Below, in pieces: positions 27,382 through 37,026 of a stretch of 64,000 nt of DNA. A model generated the notes under the pieces. It saw only the letters and a program-made list of their open reading frames with translations. It did not search any database and was not told the DNA's origin. Position 1 is the first letter of the stretch; each line of letters opens with the position of its first letter. Both the position numbers and the translations under genes were made by a program. The stretch is from a bacterium (GTDB taxonomy: Bacteria > Planctomycetota > Planctomycetia > Planctomycetales > Planctomycetaceae): contig WGME01000003.1 of the NCBI GenBank assembly GCA_016125225.1, forward strand, positions 186,001-250,000. Reading direction: 5' to 3'.

Positions 27382-27798
27382 CACATCCGAGATCAAATTC
27401 CTGGTTGGATTGGCAGGTCGGGCCGCAAGGTTCCGACCTGCTGTTCTATCCGGCCCGGAAAAACTTCCGGAATGACGCACATTTTTGAGCTAGGTTTGAA
27501 TTGGTGACGACACCGCGGCAGCTAGCGGCAGAATCCGCCGACATCAGGCGAACCGCCGTGAAACCGAGGGAAATCACTCCGTGAAGACGAACCCGGTCCA
27601 GACAATCGGGCGGAGGCGTTGTAAGCGGAACAATAGGTAAGACCGTCATAAGCTGAAGAGTTTGACACCGGTCGGCCGATGATGATTCAGGCAGAGTGGG
27701 TTTCGACCTGCCCTCTGCGGAGATCGCCTCGACCGATCGCAAGGGAGTCAGCTCTTCCTTACGAAAAACGGACGAGACGTCCACGCGGAGAGCAGGCG
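27382..27798. other. Intergenic region inside the tad locus
   Basis: About 417 bases between the prepilin peptidase gene and cpaB. No supported gene and no strong terminator are seen. It probably contains the promoter for the cpaB-cpaC-cpaE group, but no element can be named. Confidence 0.35.
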
Positions 27799-28866
27799 AT
27801 GAAACCCAAATCAATGCTGTTGTTTGCTGTAGCAGCCGGTTGTGGATTGGTGGCCATGGTTGGAGCCCAGCAGTTGCTGGCCCAGCGTGGTCAAGGCGTG
27901 CCTAAGGTGCGAGTGCTGGTAGCCCGGGCGGAAATCGATCCGGGACTGAAACTCACACCCGATCTGGTGGGCTTCCGAGACATGGCCAAAGATTCGGTCC
28001 CAGAGGGGGCCATTTTCAAAGAGGAACAATATCAGGAGCGGGCCTTGCGTGTGCGGGCCTTTCCTGGGCAGGTGATTCAGGCAGCTCAATTGGGTGAGCG
28101 CGGTCAATTCGGGACATCACTCGATATTCCCGAAGGGATGCGGATTGCCCCGTTGTCGGCCAGTGCCAATATGTTGCCCAGCGCAATTATGAAGCCGGGT
28201 GACCGGGTCGATGTCGTGTTGACCTACAAGATGACCAAGAAGGGTTCACAACCGCAAACGTTGTCCAAGACCATTCTGGAATACATCCAGGTCTACGCGA
28301 TGGGGGATCAACGGATCGGTAGTGAAGAAGTCGAAGCCGGGAAAACAAAAAAGGATGTGAAGAGTATTAGCCTGCTGGTTTCCCCCTTGCAGGCTGAGAT
28401 TCTGAAGTTGGCGGAAGAGAAGGGCAAAGTGCATCTCACGTTACGCGGCGTGCTGGACAAGCAGGCGGTGTCATCGCGCGGCTTGGATGAAACGCAACTG
28501 GCGTCGTTGCGAGCCGAACTGTCTGAGTTGGGTGTCGAACCGCCCGTGATAGAGAATCGTGAAGAGGAAAAGCCCACCGAAGCCGCCGAACCCACATTTG
28601 CAGAGTTTGTGCAAGCGGAACCAGTCGAACAACCGGAGCCACCAAAAGAGACGCCCAAATGGAAGATCGAAATTTTCCAAGGTGATGAACGTAAGATCTT
28701 CGAAGTGGATCTGCCGGAAACGAGCATTGATACGACGACGACGGAGCCTGTTGGTAAGCATAGTGGAACGACAACAGCATCGAATGGGATTTGGAATTCG
28801 CCACTGGCTCGTTGGATGACTGGTCAATCCACAGCCAATAAGACTAATACGACAATGACGCCGTAA
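27799..28866 (+). CDS. cpaB: Flp pilus assembly protein CpaB
   Basis: 355 residues. An N-terminal signal anchor (SMLLFAVAAGCGLVAMVG) is followed by a SAF-like domain (VRVLVARAEIDPGLKLTPDL and the PGQVIQAAQL segment) and the CpaB/RcpC core (KPGDRVDVVLTYKM). The last 90 residues are acidic, Pro/Thr-rich and poorly conserved in look. CpaB is a periplasmic part of the Tad apparatus working with the CpaC secretin. The ATG at 27799 has GGAG eight bases upstream and starts the anchor directly. It is followed by cpaC after 66 bases. Confidence 0.9.
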   Translation: MKPKSMLLFAVAAGCGLVAMVGAQQLLAQRGQGVPKVRVLVARAEIDPGLKLTPDLVGFRDMAKDSVPEGAIFKEEQYQERALRVRAFPGQVIQAAQLGERGQFGTSLDIPEGMRIAPLSASANMLPSAIMKPGDRVDVVLTYKMTKKGSQPQTLSKTILEYIQVYAMGDQRIGSEEVEAGKTKKDVKSISLLVSPLQAEILKLAEEKGKVHLTLRGVLDKQAVSSRGLDETQLASLRAELSELGVEPPVIENREEEKPTEAAEPTFAEFVQAEPVEQPEPPKETPKWKIEIFQGDERKIFEVDLPETSIDTTTTEPVGKHSGTTTASNGIWNSPLARWMTGQSTANKTNTTMTP

Positions 28867-28932
28867 TACGATGACCCAGGGGACGGGGGGCCGACCGGAA
28901 CCCAGGAAGAGTTTTCCAGTCGAGGTGCAGGG

Positions 28933-30666
28933 ATGCCTACGTCATCAATGTTTGGAACATGGGGGCCATGGACACTCATGCTGTCCTTCGGTCTATGCTG
29001 CCTGTCGGGGCGGGTGGATGCCCAGCAGCCAGAGCAGGCTGCCAAATCTCTGCACAATGCCGAGACCCTTTCAATCGTCGGTAATCGTACGAACATCGAA
29101 ATTCCCGAGCGGTTTTCGAAGATTTTGCGATTTCCTGCCGCTATCAAACGGATCGATGGTTTCGACCAGACCGTGGTCAGCGTGACACCGTTGTCTCCGG
29201 AAGAGATTCGCGTGCAGGCCGTGGAGCAGGGGGTGACCACCGTTGTCTTTACCGATGCCAATGGTCAGACCTATCAGGTCGAAGTCTTCGTGACCGGCGA
29301 TGCCCGGTTGTTGCAGGCTATCCTCAGCCGCACCTATCCCAATACCGCAGTCCATGCCATCAAAGTTCGAGACAGCGTCATTCTGCGTGGGTGGGTCAGT
29401 GAACCGCAGCAGATCAGCGAAATCATTGCCCTCGCGGAAGTCTATTTCCCCCGCGTGCTGAATCAGCTCAAGGTGGGTGGCCCGCAAGAAGTGCAGTTGC
29501 GTGTGAAAGTGATGGAAGTCCAACGCAGTCAGATCCGACGATTCGGCATTAACTTCGCCGCCATCGGACGGAACGCGGCCTTGATCTCCACACCGGGACC
29601 GATCACTGGTATCGAATCCTTCACGGTGCCTTTCGGTGGTCCTCCTGCGGCATCACTCGCTGCCAGTCAGTTGTCCAACGCTTCGCTGGCACTCGGTATT
29701 GCGACCGATGACTTCGTCTTTCAGGGACTCATCCAGGCCTTGAAAGAAGAAGGTCTCTTGAAGATTCAGGCTGAACCCGTGCTGGTGACCCGCAGTGGTG
29801 AAGCCGCCCGGCTGGTGAATGGGGGCGAATTCCCCATCCCCGTGCCACAAAGCCTGGGAACCGTCACGATTGAGTGGCGAGAATTCGGCGTAGTCCTGGA
29901 ATCTCTGCCGATCGTTCTCGGCCCGACCACCTTGAAACAAACCATTGTCGCGGAAGTCTCGGAACGGGACTTCAGTACTGCGGTGACATTGAATGGCACC
30001 ACGGTCCCCGGATTGACCAAACGGACGGTACAGACACAAGCCGTGATGGAGTTCGGACAAACGCTGGTCATCGGCGGACTCATCTCCACCCGTTACACCG
30101 CAGAAACCGACAAGATTCCCTTCTTCGGCGAACTTCCCGGTGTAGGGGCAGCGTTTCGTCGAACGCGTTATGACACCTCGGAAACAGAATTGCTGGTGAT
30201 GATCACACCGGAATATGTCTCCGCACTTGCACCCGATCAGGTGCCGCCCGGTGGCCCTGGCAAGAGCAGTGCCATCCCCACGGATCGCGAACTCTACTGG
30301 GATGGGGTGATCGAAGTCCCCAACTATGGTGATCCGTGTGAAGGGCCGAACTGTCCACCCGTTGGAGGCTGGATGGGGGCTCCCGCCGGTATGCCCGGTT
30401 ACTCGACCGGGACGATGCCCGTCGGTTCACCGACACCGATACCAGGAACATTGCCGAACGACGACCCGGGTTTGCTGCTGCCCGGGACGCTGCCTCCGGC
30501 TCCTGATTTGCCCCCGGCGACCTCACAACTTCCGCAACCTAGTCGTCCCCTGGCATCGGCCCGGACGACACCAGCACCGACTACGCAACAGTCACCCACA
30601 GTGACCACACCAAACTTCGAGGACGATGGGTTGATTACTCCCACGTCTGCCTCGAGTGGTCCCTGA
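28933..30666 (+). CDS. cpaC: Tad secretin CpaC/RcpA
   Basis: 577 residues. A signal peptide (ending near VDAQQ) is followed by a pilus N-terminal domain, a BON-like segment (VHAIKVRDSVILRGWVSE) and the secretin domain (about 200-430), with VPGLTKRTVQTQAVMEFGQ and GGLISTRY typical of type II/III secretins. It should form the outer-membrane pore for Flp pili. The last 130 residues form a Pro/Thr/Gly-rich tail that is not part of the secretin fold and looks disordered. It lies between cpaB and the cpaE-like gene. Confidence 0.92.
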   Translation: MPTSSMFGTWGPWTLMLSFGLCCLSGRVDAQQPEQAAKSLHNAETLSIVGNRTNIEIPERFSKILRFPAAIKRIDGFDQTVVSVTPLSPEEIRVQAVEQGVTTVVFTDANGQTYQVEVFVTGDARLLQAILSRTYPNTAVHAIKVRDSVILRGWVSEPQQISEIIALAEVYFPRVLNQLKVGGPQEVQLRVKVMEVQRSQIRRFGINFAAIGRNAALISTPGPITGIESFTVPFGGPPAASLAASQLSNASLALGIATDDFVFQGLIQALKEEGLLKIQAEPVLVTRSGEAARLVNGGEFPIPVPQSLGTVTIEWREFGVVLESLPIVLGPTTLKQTIVAEVSERDFSTAVTLNGTTVPGLTKRTVQTQAVMEFGQTLVIGGLISTRYTAETDKIPFFGELPGVGAAFRRTRYDTSETELLVMITPEYVSALAPDQVPPGGPGKSSAIPTDRELYWDGVIEVPNYGDPCEGPNCPPVGGWMGAPAGMPGYSTGTMPVGSPTPIPGTLPNDDPGLLLPGTLPPAPDLPPATSQLPQPSRPLASARTTPAPTTQQSPTVTTPNFEDDGLITPTSASSGP

Positions 30667-30728
30667 TGCCCATCGCTGACCAGGTGGTCTTTCCCGGCTG
30701 GACTGATGGCGACTGACGACAAGATTGT

Positions 30729-31949
30729 ATGGCTATGAAAAACGTAACACGGTTGGCTTTGGTCGATCCCAACGACAACACGCGCAGCATGCTGAAGACG
30801 CTGTTGCTGGGCATTGAATCGGTCTGGCTGGAGGCTGAGTGCTCGCGCTATGAGTTCTTTGTCGATGTGGTCCTGCAGTCTCAACCCGATGTGGCTTTGA
30901 TCTCACTCGACAGTCATCCGCAAAAAGGTTTGGAACTCGTCGCACGACTGAACCAGGAACTGCCAGCGTGCAAGATTCTGGTGCTCAGCAGCTCTCAGGA
31001 AGGCACGCTGATTCTGCAGGCGATCCGCAGCGGGGCCCGCGAGTTTCTGAGTGCGCCCTTGCAGTTGGAAGACTTTCTCGGTGCTCTTGATCGTGTTCGG
31101 CAGACGACGCCGGGGCGTTCGGGCGAAGGCGGTGCGACACGCAGTTGTCAGGTCATCACGATTGCTGGGGCATCCGGCGGAGTGGGATGCACGTCGCTGG
31201 CCATCAACCTGGGCTGTTGCCTGGCGCAGGGACCGGGGCGAAGTGTCGCCATCATCGACCTCGACCTCGCCTTGGGTGATGCCGATGTCTGGCTCGATAT
31301 CATTCCTGATTACACTATTCAGGATGTGGCCGATAACATCTCCCGACTCGACTACTCCTTGCTGAAGCGTTCTCTGACCAAGCATGAGTGCGGTGCCTTT
31401 TTGTTGCCGCGCCCAGTCGAAATGGATCTGCGAACGCCGATCACACCCGACGAACTGCGGCGCGTGATCGCCTTGATGAAAGCCACATTCACGCACCTCG
31501 TGCTGGATGTTTCCAAGAGCTATACCGCTCTCGATATTGCGGCGATGGAAGTCTCTGATCAGGTGCTGCTGGTCACGCAGTTGGATCTTCCCTGCCTGCG
31601 AAACGCCGTGCGGTTACTGCAGTTCTTCGATCATCGCGACGGCTTGGCCGAGAAGGTCAAAGTCGTCATCAATCGGCAGGGGCTGGAAGACAACCAGATC
31701 AGTGTTTCCAAAGCTCTGGAAACTTTGGGACGGGAAGTTTTCGCCACCATTCCCAATGACTATGCCACCATGGTGGAGGCCCGCAACAACGGCGTGCCAC
31801 TACTGACGCAGTCGCCTCGCGCGAAGTTGACCCGGGCGATTCAGCAACTCGCTTCGCAGTTTGACGTGAAGTCCGAAGAGGCTGACGAAAAGCCAGACGA
31901 TCGCAAGACGAAGCGTAGCCTGTTCAGCTTTCTCGGATCGGGCAAATAA
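30729..31949 (+). CDS. cpaE: CpaE/TadZ-like ATPase with atypical Walker A
   Basis: 406 residues. The N-terminal part (about 8-130) has a receiver-like fold. The C-terminal part (about 138-375) is of MinD/ParA type, with IDLDLALGDADVWL and HLVLDVSKSY. The P-loop reads SGGVGCTSL: Cys154 stands where the ATP-binding Lys of KGGxGKT should be, and the signature Lys is also missing. TadZ/CpaE proteins localise the Tad machine to a cell pole and are known to vary in this motif, so ATP binding may be weak or absent. No tadA, tadB or tadC follows; the next gene is on the other strand. Confidence 0.88.
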   Translation: MAMKNVTRLALVDPNDNTRSMLKTLLLGIESVWLEAECSRYEFFVDVVLQSQPDVALISLDSHPQKGLELVARLNQELPACKILVLSSSQEGTLILQAIRSGAREFLSAPLQLEDFLGALDRVRQTTPGRSGEGGATRSCQVITIAGASGGVGCTSLAINLGCCLAQGPGRSVAIIDLDLALGDADVWLDIIPDYTIQDVADNISRLDYSLLKRSLTKHECGAFLLPRPVEMDLRTPITPDELRRVIALMKATFTHLVLDVSKSYTALDIAAMEVSDQVLLVTQLDLPCLRNAVRLLQFFDHRDGLAEKVKVVINRQGLEDNQISVSKALETLGREVFATIPNDYATMVEARNNGVPLLTQSPRAKLTRAIQQLASQFDVKSEEADEKPDDRKTKRSLFSFLGSGK

Positions 31950-32500: not shown

Positions 32501-34960
32501 CTATTGCGCCTGGGCAACGAACACGGTGACTGATCGCCCTGCCACATTCACCCGTGTTTTATGCAGGAACGATTCTCCAGCGGATTCGTTGGTCAGAATG
32601 TCATCAGGACCAGCGGCTGCCGTATCAATCACTCGCCGCCAGATCCAGCCATCCGGGGCCGCAGGCAAACGGAAGTCCAGCGGCTCCCAGAACATGTTGA
32701 ACACCAGGTAGAGCACATCGATCAAACCACGGACCGAGTACAACCGCAGTTGCAGCGCCAGTGACCGACTCGACGGGGTCCAGTCCGGCTGATGGGGCTC
32801 CACTCCGTGCCAGGTGACATCGAGCAGGTCGGCCTCCTGGAATTGTCGCTGGCCGGCATGATTGTGGTGACGCAACGCCGGATGCCGCTGGCGGAAGGCG
32901 ATCAACTCCTGGCAGAACCTCAGCCGATCGGCGTAGTGTTCGGTCAAGCTCCAGTCGAGCCAGTTGATGGGGCCATCGTGGCAGTAGGTGTTATTGTTGC
33001 CGTCTTGCGTACGGCCCATTTCGTCACCCATGAGCAGCATGGGGACTCCCTGGCTGAGAAACAGCATGGCCAGGGCATTGCGGACCATCCGCTCTCTCAG
33101 GGACAGAATTTCCTCGTCATCCGTGGGGCCTTCGACTCCGCAGTTCCAGGAGTCGTTCATATCCGTGCCGTCGCGATTTTCTTCGCCGTTGGCCCAGTTA
33201 TGTTTCTCGTTGTAGCTGTAGAGATCCTGCATCGTGAAGCCGTCGTGGCAGGTCACAAAATTGACCGAAGCCGTGGGACCACGCTCGCCATAGACATCGG
33301 GCGATCCAATCAATCGCTGTGCCATCTCTCCAGCCTGACCCGGATCGCCACGGAGAAATTTGCGGGCACAGTCTCGGTACTTGCCGTTCCATTCCATCCA
33401 CCGACCAAAGGCCGGGAAGGTGCCCACCTGATACAACCCACCCGCATCCCAGGCTTCAGCGATCAATTTGGTATGACTCAATACGGGGTCGCGGGCCAGT
33501 GATTCCAGCAATGGTGGACTTGATAGCGGATTGCCTCGGGAGTCACGCCCGAGAATGCTCGCGAGATCGAACCGGAAGCCATCGATGTGGTATTCCATCA
33601 CCCAGTGACGCAGGCAATTCCGGACAAACTCGCGGACCACGGGGTGGTTGCAGTTCAAGGTATTGCCGCAACCGCTGAAATTGAGATAACCGCCGTCAGG
33701 GGCGAGCATGTAATACACACGGTCGTCGATGCCACGGAACGACAGCGTGGGGCCATTGACATCGAGTTCCGCCGTATGATTGAACACGACATCGAGAATG
33801 ACTTCGATGCCCGCGCGATGGAACTCCAAGACCAGCGTTTTCAGTTCGTCGGACTGCATGCCCAACACGCCAGAGGCTGCGTAACTGGTCTTAGGAGCAA
33901 AGAACGCCACCGTGCTGTAGCCCCAGTAATTGACCAGTCTTTCGCCGGTTTCGGGATGCTGACGCAGATTCTCGCATTCATCGAATTCGAAGATGGGCAT
34001 CAGTTCGACGCAGTTGACTCCCAACGATTTCAGATGCGGAATCTTTTCCCGCAGCCCCGCATACGTTCCCGGATACTCGACGCCCGACGTTTCACTCTTG
34101 GTGAAGCCACGCACGTGCATCTCATAAATCACTAAATCTTCGACAGGCAGTTGCAAAGCCCGGTCACCATTCCAGTCGAAGTCGTGCGGCACAATCCGCC
34201 CACGCATTACCCGGCGATCCAATGGAGTGATCGTCGAGGGGCAGCCCCAGGTTTCCGTACCGGCGAGGCTTTGAGCCATGGGATCGAGCAAGGCCACATC
34301 ACTGCGAAATCGCAGTCCACGGTCGGGCTTCCACGGACCCGTCAGCCGATAGGCATACTCCAGATCGTCCACATCAAGATCGAAGACCGTCATCGCCCAG
34401 ACATCACCGACGCGGTAAGTGTCCGGGTAAAGCAACTCCGCGAAGGGCTCCAGCACGCCGGGTCGGTAAAGGAGCAGCGTGACGGTTTCCGCATGACGGG
34501 AAAAGAGGGCGAAGTTCACGCCTCGGGGAGTTAATGTGGCACCGAAGGGTAAAGCCTCACCGCGACGAACACCAAACCCGGCAACCGAATGCGTCGGGTA
34601 AGCATCAAGCCGAAAGGGCGTGGCACTACGCACATGCAGCAAAGGCAGATTGCCGACGGTATCGGCCCGGGTCAGCAATTGTTCAAAGCCCGCGGCCACC
34701 AGCAGTTCATGCAAATCTTGCGGCACGCCGGTGGGAGCGAGGCGGCAACCGACGCTGCGCGCATAGCGGGCAACCAGAATCAGCCGCCGTAACGCATGGC
34801 TGGAAAGCCGTTCGACGCCGGTAAAATCGAGAATGATTTCATGTCCGGGCAGCAGCAAACCACGGATCTGCTCTTCGACGTTCTGTGGCAGATGTCCGGC
34901 CAACGTGCCGGTAAACCGAATCCAGGCCCGATCGCGATCTTGCTCTATGCGGACGTTCAC
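32501..34960 (-). CDS. glgX: STAS domain fused to a GlgX-type glycogen debranching enzyme
   Basis: 819 residues from a GTG start. Residues 1-100 match a STAS (anti-sigma antagonist-like) domain: IILDFTGVERLSSHAL and the following helix. Ser53/Ser54 lie where SpoIIAA-type proteins are phosphorylated, though the usual Asp before them is Leu. A CBM48-like region follows (about 125-220). Then comes a GH13 isoamylase/GlgX catalytic domain with VFNHTAE, GFRFDLAS (nucleophile Asp), LIAEAWDAGG (acid Glu) and TCHDGFT. The enzyme should cleave alpha-1,6 branches of glycogen in the cytoplasm. GlgX normally has about 650-720 residues and no STAS part. No other glycogen gene is nearby. Confidence 0.9.
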   Translation of the reverse strand: MNVRIEQDRDRAWIRFTGTLAGHLPQNVEEQIRGLLLPGHEIILDFTGVERLSSHALRRLILVARYARSVGCRLAPTGVPQDLHELLVAAGFEQLLTRADTVGNLPLLHVRSATPFRLDAYPTHSVAGFGVRRGEALPFGATLTPRGVNFALFSRHAETVTLLLYRPGVLEPFAELLYPDTYRVGDVWAMTVFDLDVDDLEYAYRLTGPWKPDRGLRFRSDVALLDPMAQSLAGTETWGCPSTITPLDRRVMRGRIVPHDFDWNGDRALQLPVEDLVIYEMHVRGFTKSETSGVEYPGTYAGLREKIPHLKSLGVNCVELMPIFEFDECENLRQHPETGERLVNYWGYSTVAFFAPKTSYAASGVLGMQSDELKTLVLEFHRAGIEVILDVVFNHTAELDVNGPTLSFRGIDDRVYYMLAPDGGYLNFSGCGNTLNCNHPVVREFVRNCLRHWVMEYHIDGFRFDLASILGRDSRGNPLSSPPLLESLARDPVLSHTKLIAEAWDAGGLYQVGTFPAFGRWMEWNGKYRDCARKFLRGDPGQAGEMAQRLIGSPDVYGERGPTASVNFVTCHDGFTMQDLYSYNEKHNWANGEENRDGTDMNDSWNCGVEGPTDDEEILSLRERMVRNALAMLFLSQGVPMLLMGDEMGRTQDGNNNTYCHDGPINWLDWSLTEHYADRLRFCQELIAFRQRHPALRHHNHAGQRQFQEADLLDVTWHGVEPHQPDWTPSSRSLALQLRLYSVRGLIDVLYLVFNMFWEPLDFRLPAAPDGWIWRRVIDTAAAGPDDILTNESAGESFLHKTRVNVAGRSVTVFVAQAQ

Positions 34961-35835
34961 CCGGGGCTCACTTTCCCATACTGTACGCTGTCACCCACGC
35001 TGCGCGGCCCGCAATCCTAACACGCGGACACCCCGAAAAGCGCGGATGGACGACACGCAGAGGGGAAAGCGTTAGCGACACATTCCGTGCACACCGCACA
35101 ACCGCACGGTGCGACAGGAACCATAGGAGTCCTGCCGTTTGCCCGGCGGGATGATGTTCACACACAGGCGGCCACAGAATTGCTGTAGAAAACTGCCCGG
35201 ATACCACCGGCATTAATGCAGGAAGCAAGATCTCGCCAACTCACAACGAGCGGGGGGCGTCAGGCCTGGGATTGAGAGCTTTCGGATGGTCCCAAAGCCG
35301 CACCCGCCGTGGTGCGAGCTGTTCGTTCCGTACGACTGGCGGTCAACGGCATCTACCCGTCGACTCATGCAAGAGCATTCCCTACGAGACTGGACCTGGA
35401 GTTCTGCCCGATGGCATCACTCGGGAAATTCGGTGGGTAGCACAATCAGGGCAGTCGTTTTTGTGTAGCACTGGCTCCGCCAGTGCTCATTAGTGTTCAA
35501 TGGAATGGCCCGTGAACGACCGGTGGTCTTAATGCATCAGACTTGTTTGCCAGAATGGTCAAAACGCTGGAAAAGCCAGTTGCACCCATTCAGAAGTCTC
35601 TGACAGTGCCACCCCGCCGACTGGTCGATCCGAGTCCTCCATCGTGCGCACTTACTCAGACTATGTGACTCTCGTAATCCTCAGTATGGAGATTTGGGCA
35701 AGGTAAGCATGGTCATGGGTTCTGTAGTGCGTTACTCTTCTACCGATGGATGGCTCCAAGAGATTACACTCTGTCGGAACCGCACAACAACTCCAATTCT
35801 GGGAGATGGACTCATCTCGCAATGGGGCAAATAAA
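34961..35835. other. Long non-coding stretch before the orphan effector-like gene
   Basis: About 875 bases with no gene that can be supported on either strand. Composition is more AT-rich and irregular from about 35200 onward than in flanking genes. It contains a perfect hairpin at 35467-35487. It may be a decayed or inserted segment. No integrase, terminal repeats or attachment site could be found by eye. Confidence 0.45.
35467..35487. repeat. Perfect 9-bp hairpin
   Basis: AGCACTGGC (35467-35475) and GCCAGTGCT (35479-35487) form a perfect stem with a three-base loop. There is no T-run and no gene end next to it, so it is more likely a small REP-like palindrome than a terminator. Confidence 0.5.
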
Positions 35836-37026
35836 ATGGCTGAAGCTAACATGAATAGCGACTCAACAACCGTATCTGAGAGCACGGCTCTCCCACCAAA
35901 ACCTGCCAAGGCTGAGAAAAAGGCAAGCCCAACCAAGGCCGCAGCTAAAAAGTCAAAAGCGGCGGTAAAGCGGCCAAAATCGTCTTCGGAAAAGAAGCCC
36001 AAAGCAAAAGTAAGGCGAACTTTTCCGCAAAACACACTAGAGGAGGCTCTGGCCGTTCCATCTGCACTCAAGATGAACAAAGGTAATCCACTCGCTCCGA
36101 ACGATATTGCCACGGCACTCGGTTATGCCAGTAAGTCCTCAACGGCGTTTTTTTACGTGGCCGCGTCATCAAGAGACTACGGACTCACTACGGGGAGCCG
36201 CGATCAAGCGACAATTGAATTAACAGATTTAGGTCGCAGGATTGTTTATCCGACTTCGGACGAACAGTTGCAGATCGATAAGACTGCTGCGTTTTTCAAC
36301 GTTCCGCTATTCAAAAGCCTATATGACTATTATGGCGGTGGTCAATTACCGAAGATGGAATTCGTCAGCAGCGTGCTATTCAACACGTTTCAGCTTGACG
36401 AATCTCTGCACAATGAATTCTGCGATCTCTACCAGCGCAATTGCAATTATCTCAGTCTTCGCGAGGGGCGAGGCGCTTCAACAATTAGGCAAACCGGAGA
36501 TTCCGGCGAACAGTCCGTGGTGGTTCTACAACCTGGCCAGTACAAGCAACGTGCTTTCATTATTATGCCGTTCAGTGAAAAAGGTACGAACCCTCGCCCA
36601 ACGAGCTTCTTTGACGAAGTATTCACGAGTCTCCTCACGCCCGCGTGCAACAAGGCCGATTTTGGGGTTGAGACGGCCCGCAAGCATGGTAGCGATGTCA
36701 TTCACCACACAATTGTTAAAGAGCTTGATGAAGCGGATTTGGTCATCGCTGATCTTACGGATCATAACCCAAACGTTTTGTTTGAACTTGGAATTCGGAT
36801 CGCATTGGACAAACCGGTCCTCCTCATCAGGGCGATGGGAACTCCACCAATCTTTGACGTTGATCACATGATGCGGGTATTTGAGTACGACCCGCGACTG
36901 TGGAAATCAACCATTGATGGCGATATCACTGGCCTGAGCGAACATGTAAAGGGCGGATGGGAGAACCGCGACAAGAATATCAGTTACATGAGGCTTCTCA
37001 AAACAGGCCAGTTACCGCCGCGTTGA
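35836..37026 (+). CDS. Orphan protein: Lys/Ala-rich tail, winged-helix-like region, deoxyribosyltransferase-like domain
   Basis: 396 residues from the ATG at 35836; the frame is open from an ATG at 35746. The first 65 residues are rich in Lys, Ala, Pro and Ser, like a histone-type DNA-binding tail. The middle (about 70-210) looks like a winged-helix region (LAPNDIATALGYASKSSTAFFY, cut here to its start). The C-terminal domain has AFIIMPFSEKG, then HTIVKELDEADLVIADLT and NPNVLFELGIRIALDKPV. This pattern belongs to nucleoside 2-deoxyribosyltransferase-like/TIR-related folds found in bacterial immunity, with the Glu of FELG as the likely catalytic residue. Codon use and AT content differ from neighbours, suggesting transfer. 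It stands alone on its strand. Confidence 0.72.
   Translation: MAEANMNSDSTTVSESTALPPKPAKAEKKASPTKAAAKKSKAAVKRPKSSSEKKPKAKVRRTFPQNTLEEALAVPSALKMNKGNPLAPNDIATALGYASKSSTAFFYVAASSRDYGLTTGSRDQATIELTDLGRRIVYPTSDEQLQIDKTAAFFNVPLFKSLYDYYGGGQLPKMEFVSSVLFNTFQLDESLHNEFCDLYQRNCNYLSLREGRGASTIRQTGDSGEQSVVVLQPGQYKQRAFIIMPFSEKGTNPRPTSFFDEVFTSLLTPACNKADFGVETARKHGSDVIHHTIVKELDEADLVIADLTDHNPNVLFELGIRIALDKPVLLIRAMGTPPIFDVDHMMRVFEYDPRLWKSTIDGDITGLSEHVKGGWENRDKNISYMRLLKTGQLPPR

Follow-up and report, generated by a model that had tools for sequence, protein, structure and literature searches.

The closest described relative of the system considered here is the icfG cluster of Synechocystis 6803, which, in the available portions of two papers, comprises genes for an epimerase (slr1855), a STAS protein (slr1856), a GlgX/isoamylase (slr1857), a second STAS protein (slr1859), the PP2C phosphatase IcfG (slr1860), and a kinase (slr1861) (PMC12329169, PMC8670252). 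Slr1861 phosphorylates Slr1856 and Slr1859, and IcfG dephosphorylates Slr1856; slr1857 is given as an isoamylase; for Slr1856, the sigma target was called unknown in 2025 (PMC12329169). The genes slr1852–slr1862, including that of the Slr1855 epimerase, are reported to form a single salt-repressed operon (PMC8670252). Here we describe a gene of a planctomycete (Planctomycetaceae; assembly GCA_016125225.1, contig WGME01000003.1) that joins a STAS domain and a GlgX-type glycogen debranching enzyme in one protein. The window, i.e., the whole stretch analysed, is 64,000 nucleotides long (contig positions 186,001 to 250,000, forward strand); G and L numbers are labels of the compared genomes and loci, G000 being the genome of the window fusion. 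We consider it probable that the protein is an icfG-type, Slr1857-like GlgX whose upstream Slr1856-like STAS partner became an N-terminal, cis-acting regulatory or assembly domain with a relaxed phospho-switch.

The earlier note, made from the letters alone, had read a single frame of STAS, CBM48, and a GH13 GlgX domain, and this make-up is borne out, with Pfam and TIGR02100 scores over their cut-offs. The features, in window positions, are the following.

32501..34960, minus strand: STAS-GlgX fusion gene, a single open frame with a GTG start, 819 residues; six orthologues.
34667..34960, minus strand: STAS domain, residues 1–98, beta-beta-alpha-beta-alpha-beta-alpha-alpha; Pfam STAS_2 and STAS, AlphaFold2, RsbV match.
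34799..34801, minus strand: Ser54 codon AGC, the phosphoserine place; aligned with the DSAG serine of TM1442.
34613..34666, minus strand: linker, residues 99–116; from model confidence (pLDDT) and length comparison in seven fusions.
32516..34561, minus strand: GlgX/isoamylase-type debranching enzyme, residues 134–815; TIGR02100, isoamylase and GlgX structure matches.
34274..34549, minus strand: CBM48, residues 138–229; Pfam CBM_48, 42.8 bits.
33566..33568, minus strand: Asp465, expected GH13 nucleophile (FRFDLA); invariant in seven fusions.
33455..33457, minus strand: Glu502, expected acid/base (AEAWDA); invariant in seven fusions.
33242..33244, minus strand: Asp573, expected third catalytic residue (CHDGF); invariant in seven fusions.
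32579..32812, minus strand: C-terminal isoamylase domain ISOA1-3_C, residues 717–794; Pfam 46.4 bits, cut-off 27.3.

The N-terminal domain matches STAS_2 (PF13466) with 36.1 bits against a cut-off of 29.2 and STAS (PF01740) with 26.5 against 22.6. The N-terminal 115 residues give 32.5 bits with TIGR00377, the model of SpoIIAA/RsbV-type anti-sigma factor antagonists, which is under its cut-off of 53.45. In the remainder of the protein, CBM_48 (cut-off 22.4) is accompanied by Alpha-amylase (66.7 bits, cut-off 22), and the NCBIfam model glgX_debranch (TIGR02100) covers residues 134–815 with 681.9 bits, above its curated equivalog cut-off of 640.9. Asp465, Glu502, and Asp573, which we take to be the GH13 catalytic triad, align without variation in the seven fusions described below, so the claim of an intact triad holds as far as these expected roles go. 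The GlgX part looks intact as a debranching enzyme, with a predicted alpha-1,6 activity. Two possible start codons, GTG 110 and TTG 107, fall within the linker, from where a short second product without the STAS domain could possibly be initiated.

Structure modelling agrees with the domain assignment. A search with the full-length model was dominated by GH13 chains and barely probed the STAS part, which was therefore folded and searched alone. Residues 1–111 adopt a STAS fold in the AlphaFold2 model, with a mean predicted local distance difference test (pLDDT) of 87.2, as the earlier note had expected of the N-terminus. The top three Foldseek matches are an anti-sigma antagonist from Haliangium (4hyl, E-value 1.5e-6), RsbV from the RsbV/RsbW complex (4.2e-6), and SpoIIAA from the SpoIIAB complex (7.6e-6). 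In VIA-align 2, RsbV scores Z 13.6 over 95 residues with a root-mean-square deviation of 2.0 A, 4hyl Z 12.9, and SpoIIAA Z 12.7, values that we treat as tied. The full-length model has a mean pLDDT of 79.8 and a predicted template modelling score of 0.79, and its residues 101–117 fall below a pLDDT of 50, which points to a flexible linker between STAS and GlgX. The GlgX part matches solved isoamylase and GlgX chains with Z 36.5–40.5, the best being one chain from the rice ISA1-ISA2 isoamylase complex (Z 40.5), with Streptomyces venezuelae GlgX at Z 38.1.

The same N-terminus is present in other planctomycete GlgX proteins. Among 59 relatives, the fusion was found in four genomes (G000, G003, G048, and G044), and among 397 genomes of the class in seven, which include G088, G103, and G321 as well; each of the seven matches the model from position 1–2 to 808–809 in a single frame. 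A search of 392 genomes of the phylum at an E-value of 1e-290 returned seven matches, only those of G000 and G003 being fused and the other five starting at model positions 101–127. The scans of the class and of the phylum, and that for the epimerase fusion below, kept at most two candidates per genome at strict E-values and may have passed over truncated fusions. The G088 fusion is the same locus as L031 of Isosphaeraceae bacterium KatS3mg108, which puts the window in Planctomycetota, and repeat retrievals of the same fusions (L111–L114, L115, L070, L140–L146) were counted once. The fusion was not found in two genomes of the window's own genus, G001 and G002 (the latter 64% complete), so the gene is patchy in its distribution.

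The six orthologous fusions are 53–58% identical to the window protein, and all have a possible start codon at the column of the window start; these starts were chosen by us, and some of the frames stay open beyond this point and offer alternative upstream starts. The core of the STAS domain, 92 residues long, contains no indels in any of the seven, from which it follows that the domain belongs to the gene and, given a mean core identity of 31% (pairwise 18–60%), that its fold has been retained. Residues D45, R58, L60, L62, A89, and G91 are invariant, and the stretch corresponding to residues 93–116 is 20–27 residues long. An artefact or a true start after residue 105, the outcome that the earlier note had named as fatal to its proposal, is rejected, as the orthologues share this in-frame domain and its core is uniform.

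Outside these fusions, the two partners are commonly found as neighbouring genes. At least 565 relatives of the GlgX part were confirmed in the genome collection, the best 80 of which were kept for neighbourhood counts, some of their contigs ending early and limiting these counts. Only L031 and L070 among the 80 are fused, both already within the seven, and in 51 a separate STAS gene lies no more than 700 bases upstream of GlgX. The 51 pairs come from 11 named phyla, Planctomycetota not among them, plus one genome that carries no phylum label. An RsbW-type kinase lies near 46 of them, a GlcNAc-2-epimerase-like gene upstream of 43, a second STAS gene downstream of 42, and a SpoIIE-type PP2C gene in reach of 25, with kinase, epimerase, second STAS, and PP2C all present in 21; the three Bacillota pairs, for instance, are without epimerase and without second STAS. 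The view that the usual GlgX has no STAS domain holds for a fused domain, but many bacteria have one as the adjacent gene. Cluster genes were called with our own small profiles (four seeds for the kinase, two for the epimerase, one for PP2C), and Pfam, run on representatives only, recognised HATPase_c_2 in four of them, SpoIIE in one, and the epimerase in one of the two checked; the epimerase-like protein of Synechocystis salina has no Pfam match and is linked via its relative in L038. The S. salina locus (L039, 8162–15278) has the order epimerase-STAS-GlgX-STAS-PP2C-kinase. Overall, a STAS-GlgX pair near an RsbW-type kinase, often with epimerase, second STAS, and PP2C, recurs across loci L032–L109, an arrangement presumably known before only as Synechocystis icfG. 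The Dyadobacter locus L034 (13288–16446), in which no PP2C was found, has the cluster kinase directly followed by an nSTAND1 NTPase with WD40 repeats; for the upstream STAS of the Dyadobacter cluster, the top sequence match among solved structures is the Haliangium protein 4hyl (81 bits). Within Planctomycetota, G412 from another class bears an unfused epimerase-STAS-GlgX-kinase-PP2C cluster (L153, 5753–13281, minus strand), in which a second STAS was not found, and this is likely the state before fusion.

Phylogeny places the fusions with the enzymes of this cluster. In a FastTree tree of 132 GlgX domains, the seven fusions form one clade (support 99), which sorts by family (G000 with G003, G048 with G044, G088 with G103). 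They group with the 51 cluster-type and 26 other relatives, and 48 ordinary planctomycete GlgX proteins stand separate (support 100); a rerun that dropped the long branch L024 and took in six further rows gave the same result, the GlgX of G412 falling among the cluster types. In the STAS tree, the seven fused domains come together (95), and 45 downstream STAS domains make a group of their own (99). On these sequence relationships, the window fusion is an Slr1857-type GlgX joined to the Slr1856-type STAS that otherwise directly precedes it.

The residues of the phospho-switch tell fused and unfused domains apart. In an alignment to TM1442, Ser54 of the window fusion falls on the serine of the DSAG motif and Ser53 on its Asp. 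Ser53/Ser54 had been proposed to lie at the phosphorylated place with the usual preceding Asp replaced by Leu; Ser54 indeed occupies that place, but the residue before it is Ser53, not Leu, and the position matching Ser53 is Ser in all 54 unfused upstream STAS domains. For the count of switch residues, 106 STAS domains were kept (54 upstream, 45 downstream, 7 fused), with rows shorter than 70 residues and STAS matches far from GlgX dropped. The phosphoserine place is Ser in 54/54 upstream and 45/45 downstream domains and in 4/7 fused ones, the other three fusions carrying P, A, or G; the Asp of the GELD motif is retained in 52/54, 43/45, and 2/7, respectively. The upstream domains, all within 3 kb of GlgX, read SSAGLR in 53 cases and SSIGLR in one, and the Arg of this motif is conserved in 106/106 domains. 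The window fusion keeps S53-S54 but has A21 for the GELD Asp, H55 for the SSAG Ala, and A56 for the SSAG Gly. On the GlgX tree, the three serine losses amount to at least two events, if the sister pair G088/G103 shares one. At a GlgX identity of 60–65%, the fused STAS domains are on average 26% identical (13 pairs) vs. 36% for unfused ones (299 pairs). The phospho-switch residues are eroded in the fusions, and the toggle itself has probably been relaxed or lost.

The surroundings of the fusions differ from the cluster as well. In the stretches beside the seven genes (0.9–10.6 kb per side, two shortened by contig ends), no epimerase, PP2C, or second STAS was found. The sole kinase domain, about 5 kb off in G103, was not taken as linkage: it belongs to a response-regulator protein, and TPR and exosortase-like genes lie in between. 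At the window fusion locus (L140; G000 C27:210000-229000), neither the kinase nor PP2C, second STAS, or epimerase was found, with no kinase or phosphatase within 8.0–8.5 kb. Several neighbours are common to G048 and G044 only, which belong to one family, and a sulfatase to G088 and G321; the few remaining cross-matches, the fusion gene itself excepted, are weak (26–31% identity), and no glycogen gene is among eight fusion neighbours that were scanned. The G412 cluster kinase gives matches of only 21–31 bits in five of the fusion genomes and no match in the other two, i.e., no close relative. An epimerase search gave no match in five of the seven, including G000, a weak partial match in G321, and a strong one in G003, far from the fusion. 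Every one of the seven genomes does have RsbW-type and PP2C proteins elsewhere, so phosphorylation in trans would still be possible. In G000, where the earlier note had suggested looking for a kinase partner of this type, these include nine PF13581 matches, six of them over the cut-off; STAS_2 has seven matches there including the fusion itself, four over the cut-off, and a linked kinase-STAS pair lies on C17 (L147), where an RsbW-type protein is encoded at C17:117508-117870.

A second fusion in the same class involves the other enzyme of the cluster. An epimerase-like protein with a C-terminal STAS domain is encoded in 4/397 class genomes, and two further genomes match the epimerase part only.

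L160 6556-8697 (G003), minus strand: epimerase-STAS fusion; also in L162, L163, and L164 (G170, G243, and G147).

A GlgX gene adjoins the epimerase-STAS fusion; that of G003 groups, as a long branch, with ordinary planctomycete GlgX. The epimerase-fused STAS resembles the downstream STAS of the cluster, as judged by motif rather than by a tree, and has Lys-Gln where all 45 downstream domains have Gln. Its phosphoserine place, read by eye, is Glu in three of the four and Ser in one. Taking the two fusions together, planctomycetes joined STAS to each enzyme of the cluster, with the switch decayed in most, and STAS joined to both enzymes is what would be expected if STAS proteins act on these enzymes.

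We suggest the following course of events. In the ancestral cluster, an Slr1856-like STAS gene would have stood just upstream of the GlgX gene, and the two were then fused. That the fusion joins Slr1856- and Slr1857-like partners suggests that the STAS protein acts on the enzyme: in the unfused cluster, kinase and PP2C may toggle a STAS-GlgX contact via Ser phosphorylation, and in the fusion, STAS on its flexible linker may act in cis as a regulatory or assembly subunit built into the protein, setting GlgX activity or oligomeric state through direct contact, with the phosphorylation toggle relaxed or lost. In the window fusion, Ser54 could still be phosphorylated in trans; since other signatures nearby have been lost, the arrangement is more probably a mostly constitutive one.

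Several points weigh against this reading. The window fusion still has Ser54, and G000 encodes, besides the PF13581 proteins, eight PF07228 matches. The linker is modelled at low confidence, and neighbouring genes can fuse without physical contact, so that fusion alone is no proof of contact. The 80 loci are the most similar relatives rather than a random draw, and 27 of them have neither the fusion nor a STAS gene in the 700 bases before GlgX; in these 27, a kinase was found in four and an epimerase in two, and 23 show none of the five neighbours. Of the four with a kinase, three (L048, L058, and L084) have a STAS further upstream, and in the last, L091, the contig starts at GlgX. The STAS tree, built on 103 columns with several long branches, counts as supporting evidence only. 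Finally, in the available text of PMC12329169, Slr1861 binds SigC, a contact that is itself a model there, and controls it together with the other antagonist Ssr1600, and the authors see Slr1856 as part of an anti-sigma antagonist network. As its kinase has a SigC output, Slr1856 need not act on GlgX; it may act via Slr1861 on transcription instead, or do both.

A wider version of the proposal is that the cluster, across the 11 phyla counted above, has a metabolic enzyme as an output of its first STAS protein (STAS1): STAS1, in one phosphorylation state, would bind GlgX and switch debranching, the second STAS may do likewise for the epimerase, and planctomycetes would have hard-wired this twice by fusion (STAS1-GlgX and second STAS-epimerase), letting the phospho-switch decay. 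We regard this version as tentative and rate it lower because Slr1861 controls SigC via Ssr1600.

Next to these stands an intact partner switch, in which a trans-acting RsbW-type kinase phosphorylates Ser54 and PP2C reverses it, so that stress switches glycogen breakdown or an anti-sigma factor is sequestered. It is consistent with the serine kept in the window fusion and in four of the seven, with the kinase-STAS pair and the several PF13581 and PF07228 proteins of G000, and with the unfused relative Slr1856 being a phosphoprotein of such a switch whose kinase controls SigC (PMC12329169). Yet the window fusion has lost the GELD Asp and the SSAG Ala and Gly, the serine has given way in three fusions, no kinase or phosphatase was found close to the window gene, and the fusion genomes hold no close relative of the G412 kinase, all of which makes an intact switch unlikely. 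The link to partner switching drawn in the earlier note therefore stands as history, with a kinase near 46 of the 51 unfused pairs, and not as a working general-stress phospho-switch, for which the eroded residues and the cluster genes not found beside the fusions give no support.

A leftover STAS domain, structural or vestigial, that aids folding or solubility and has no regulatory role is less likely still. The faster divergence of fused STAS domains and the loss of phosphoserine in three of seven fusions would suit a leftover, but the domain has been retained at pairwise identities down to 18% and up to 60%, with its core free of indels and the six residues named above invariant. In a reverse flow, GlgX would sense glucan, and a kinase or anti-sigma factor elsewhere would learn of the carbon status via STAS; this is very improbable: the closest solved folds do include RsbV and SpoIIAA in complex with their kinases, and such kinases are encoded in the genome, but the surroundings of the phospho-place are eroded while the expected catalytic residues are kept.

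In comparison with the icfG cluster, then, the window locus has the same type of STAS adjoining the same type of GlgX, and S. salina preserves the whole order, but here the two are one protein with eroded switch residues, and no kinase, phosphatase, second STAS, or epimerase was found next to it. With SpoIIAA and RsbV, the window STAS shares the fold and a serine at the phospho-place; unlike them, it is fused to an enzyme, scores below the TIGR00377 cut-off, and is without the GELD Asp and the SSAG Gly. In its way of working, the proposed arrangement is like that of SiaC of Pseudomonas aeruginosa, a small protein that directly binds and activates the enzyme SiaD, which is a diguanylate cyclase and a separate protein (PMC8457831). 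GlgX under direct signal control is also described for S. venezuelae, whose enzyme, matched by our model, is allosterically activated by cyclic di-GMP (PMC9530166); there, the signal is a small-molecule ligand, and the abstract names no STAS domain.

In the open-access literature, with subscription literature mostly uncovered, no paper was found on a STAS-GlgX fusion or on the cluster outside Synechocystis. Only one open-access paper contains both "STAS domain" and "glgX", in a table of mycobacterial expression where they are separate entries; glycogen, icfG, and Synechocystis gave no match in a review of STAS-only proteins, and in the searched text of a 2024 alpha-glucan review, STAS, icfG, and partner switching were not found. 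PMC4911114 was not used: in its available portion, slr1857 is among the tested enzymes, with activity described only for slr0237, and the printed reverse primers of these two genes are identical.

As to the rest of the window, genes of the Flp/Tad pilus type (RcpC/CpaB, a secretin, and an apparently CpaE-like receiver-ATPase) adjoin the fusion gene at 27679–31949 on the plus strand, with no evident link to it. On its other side, 35746–37026 (plus strand) encodes a 426-residue protein with a C-terminal nucleoside 2-deoxyribosyltransferase-like domain (29.9 bits).

For the icfG switch, the 2025 paper shows control of SigC by the kinase via Ssr1600 and calls the target of Slr1856 unknown (PMC12329169). 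The fusion of an Slr1856 homologue to the GlgX encoded next to it points to a concrete target for Slr1856, the debranching enzyme. If this is true, a switch best known for sigma factors would directly control glycogen use in many phyla.

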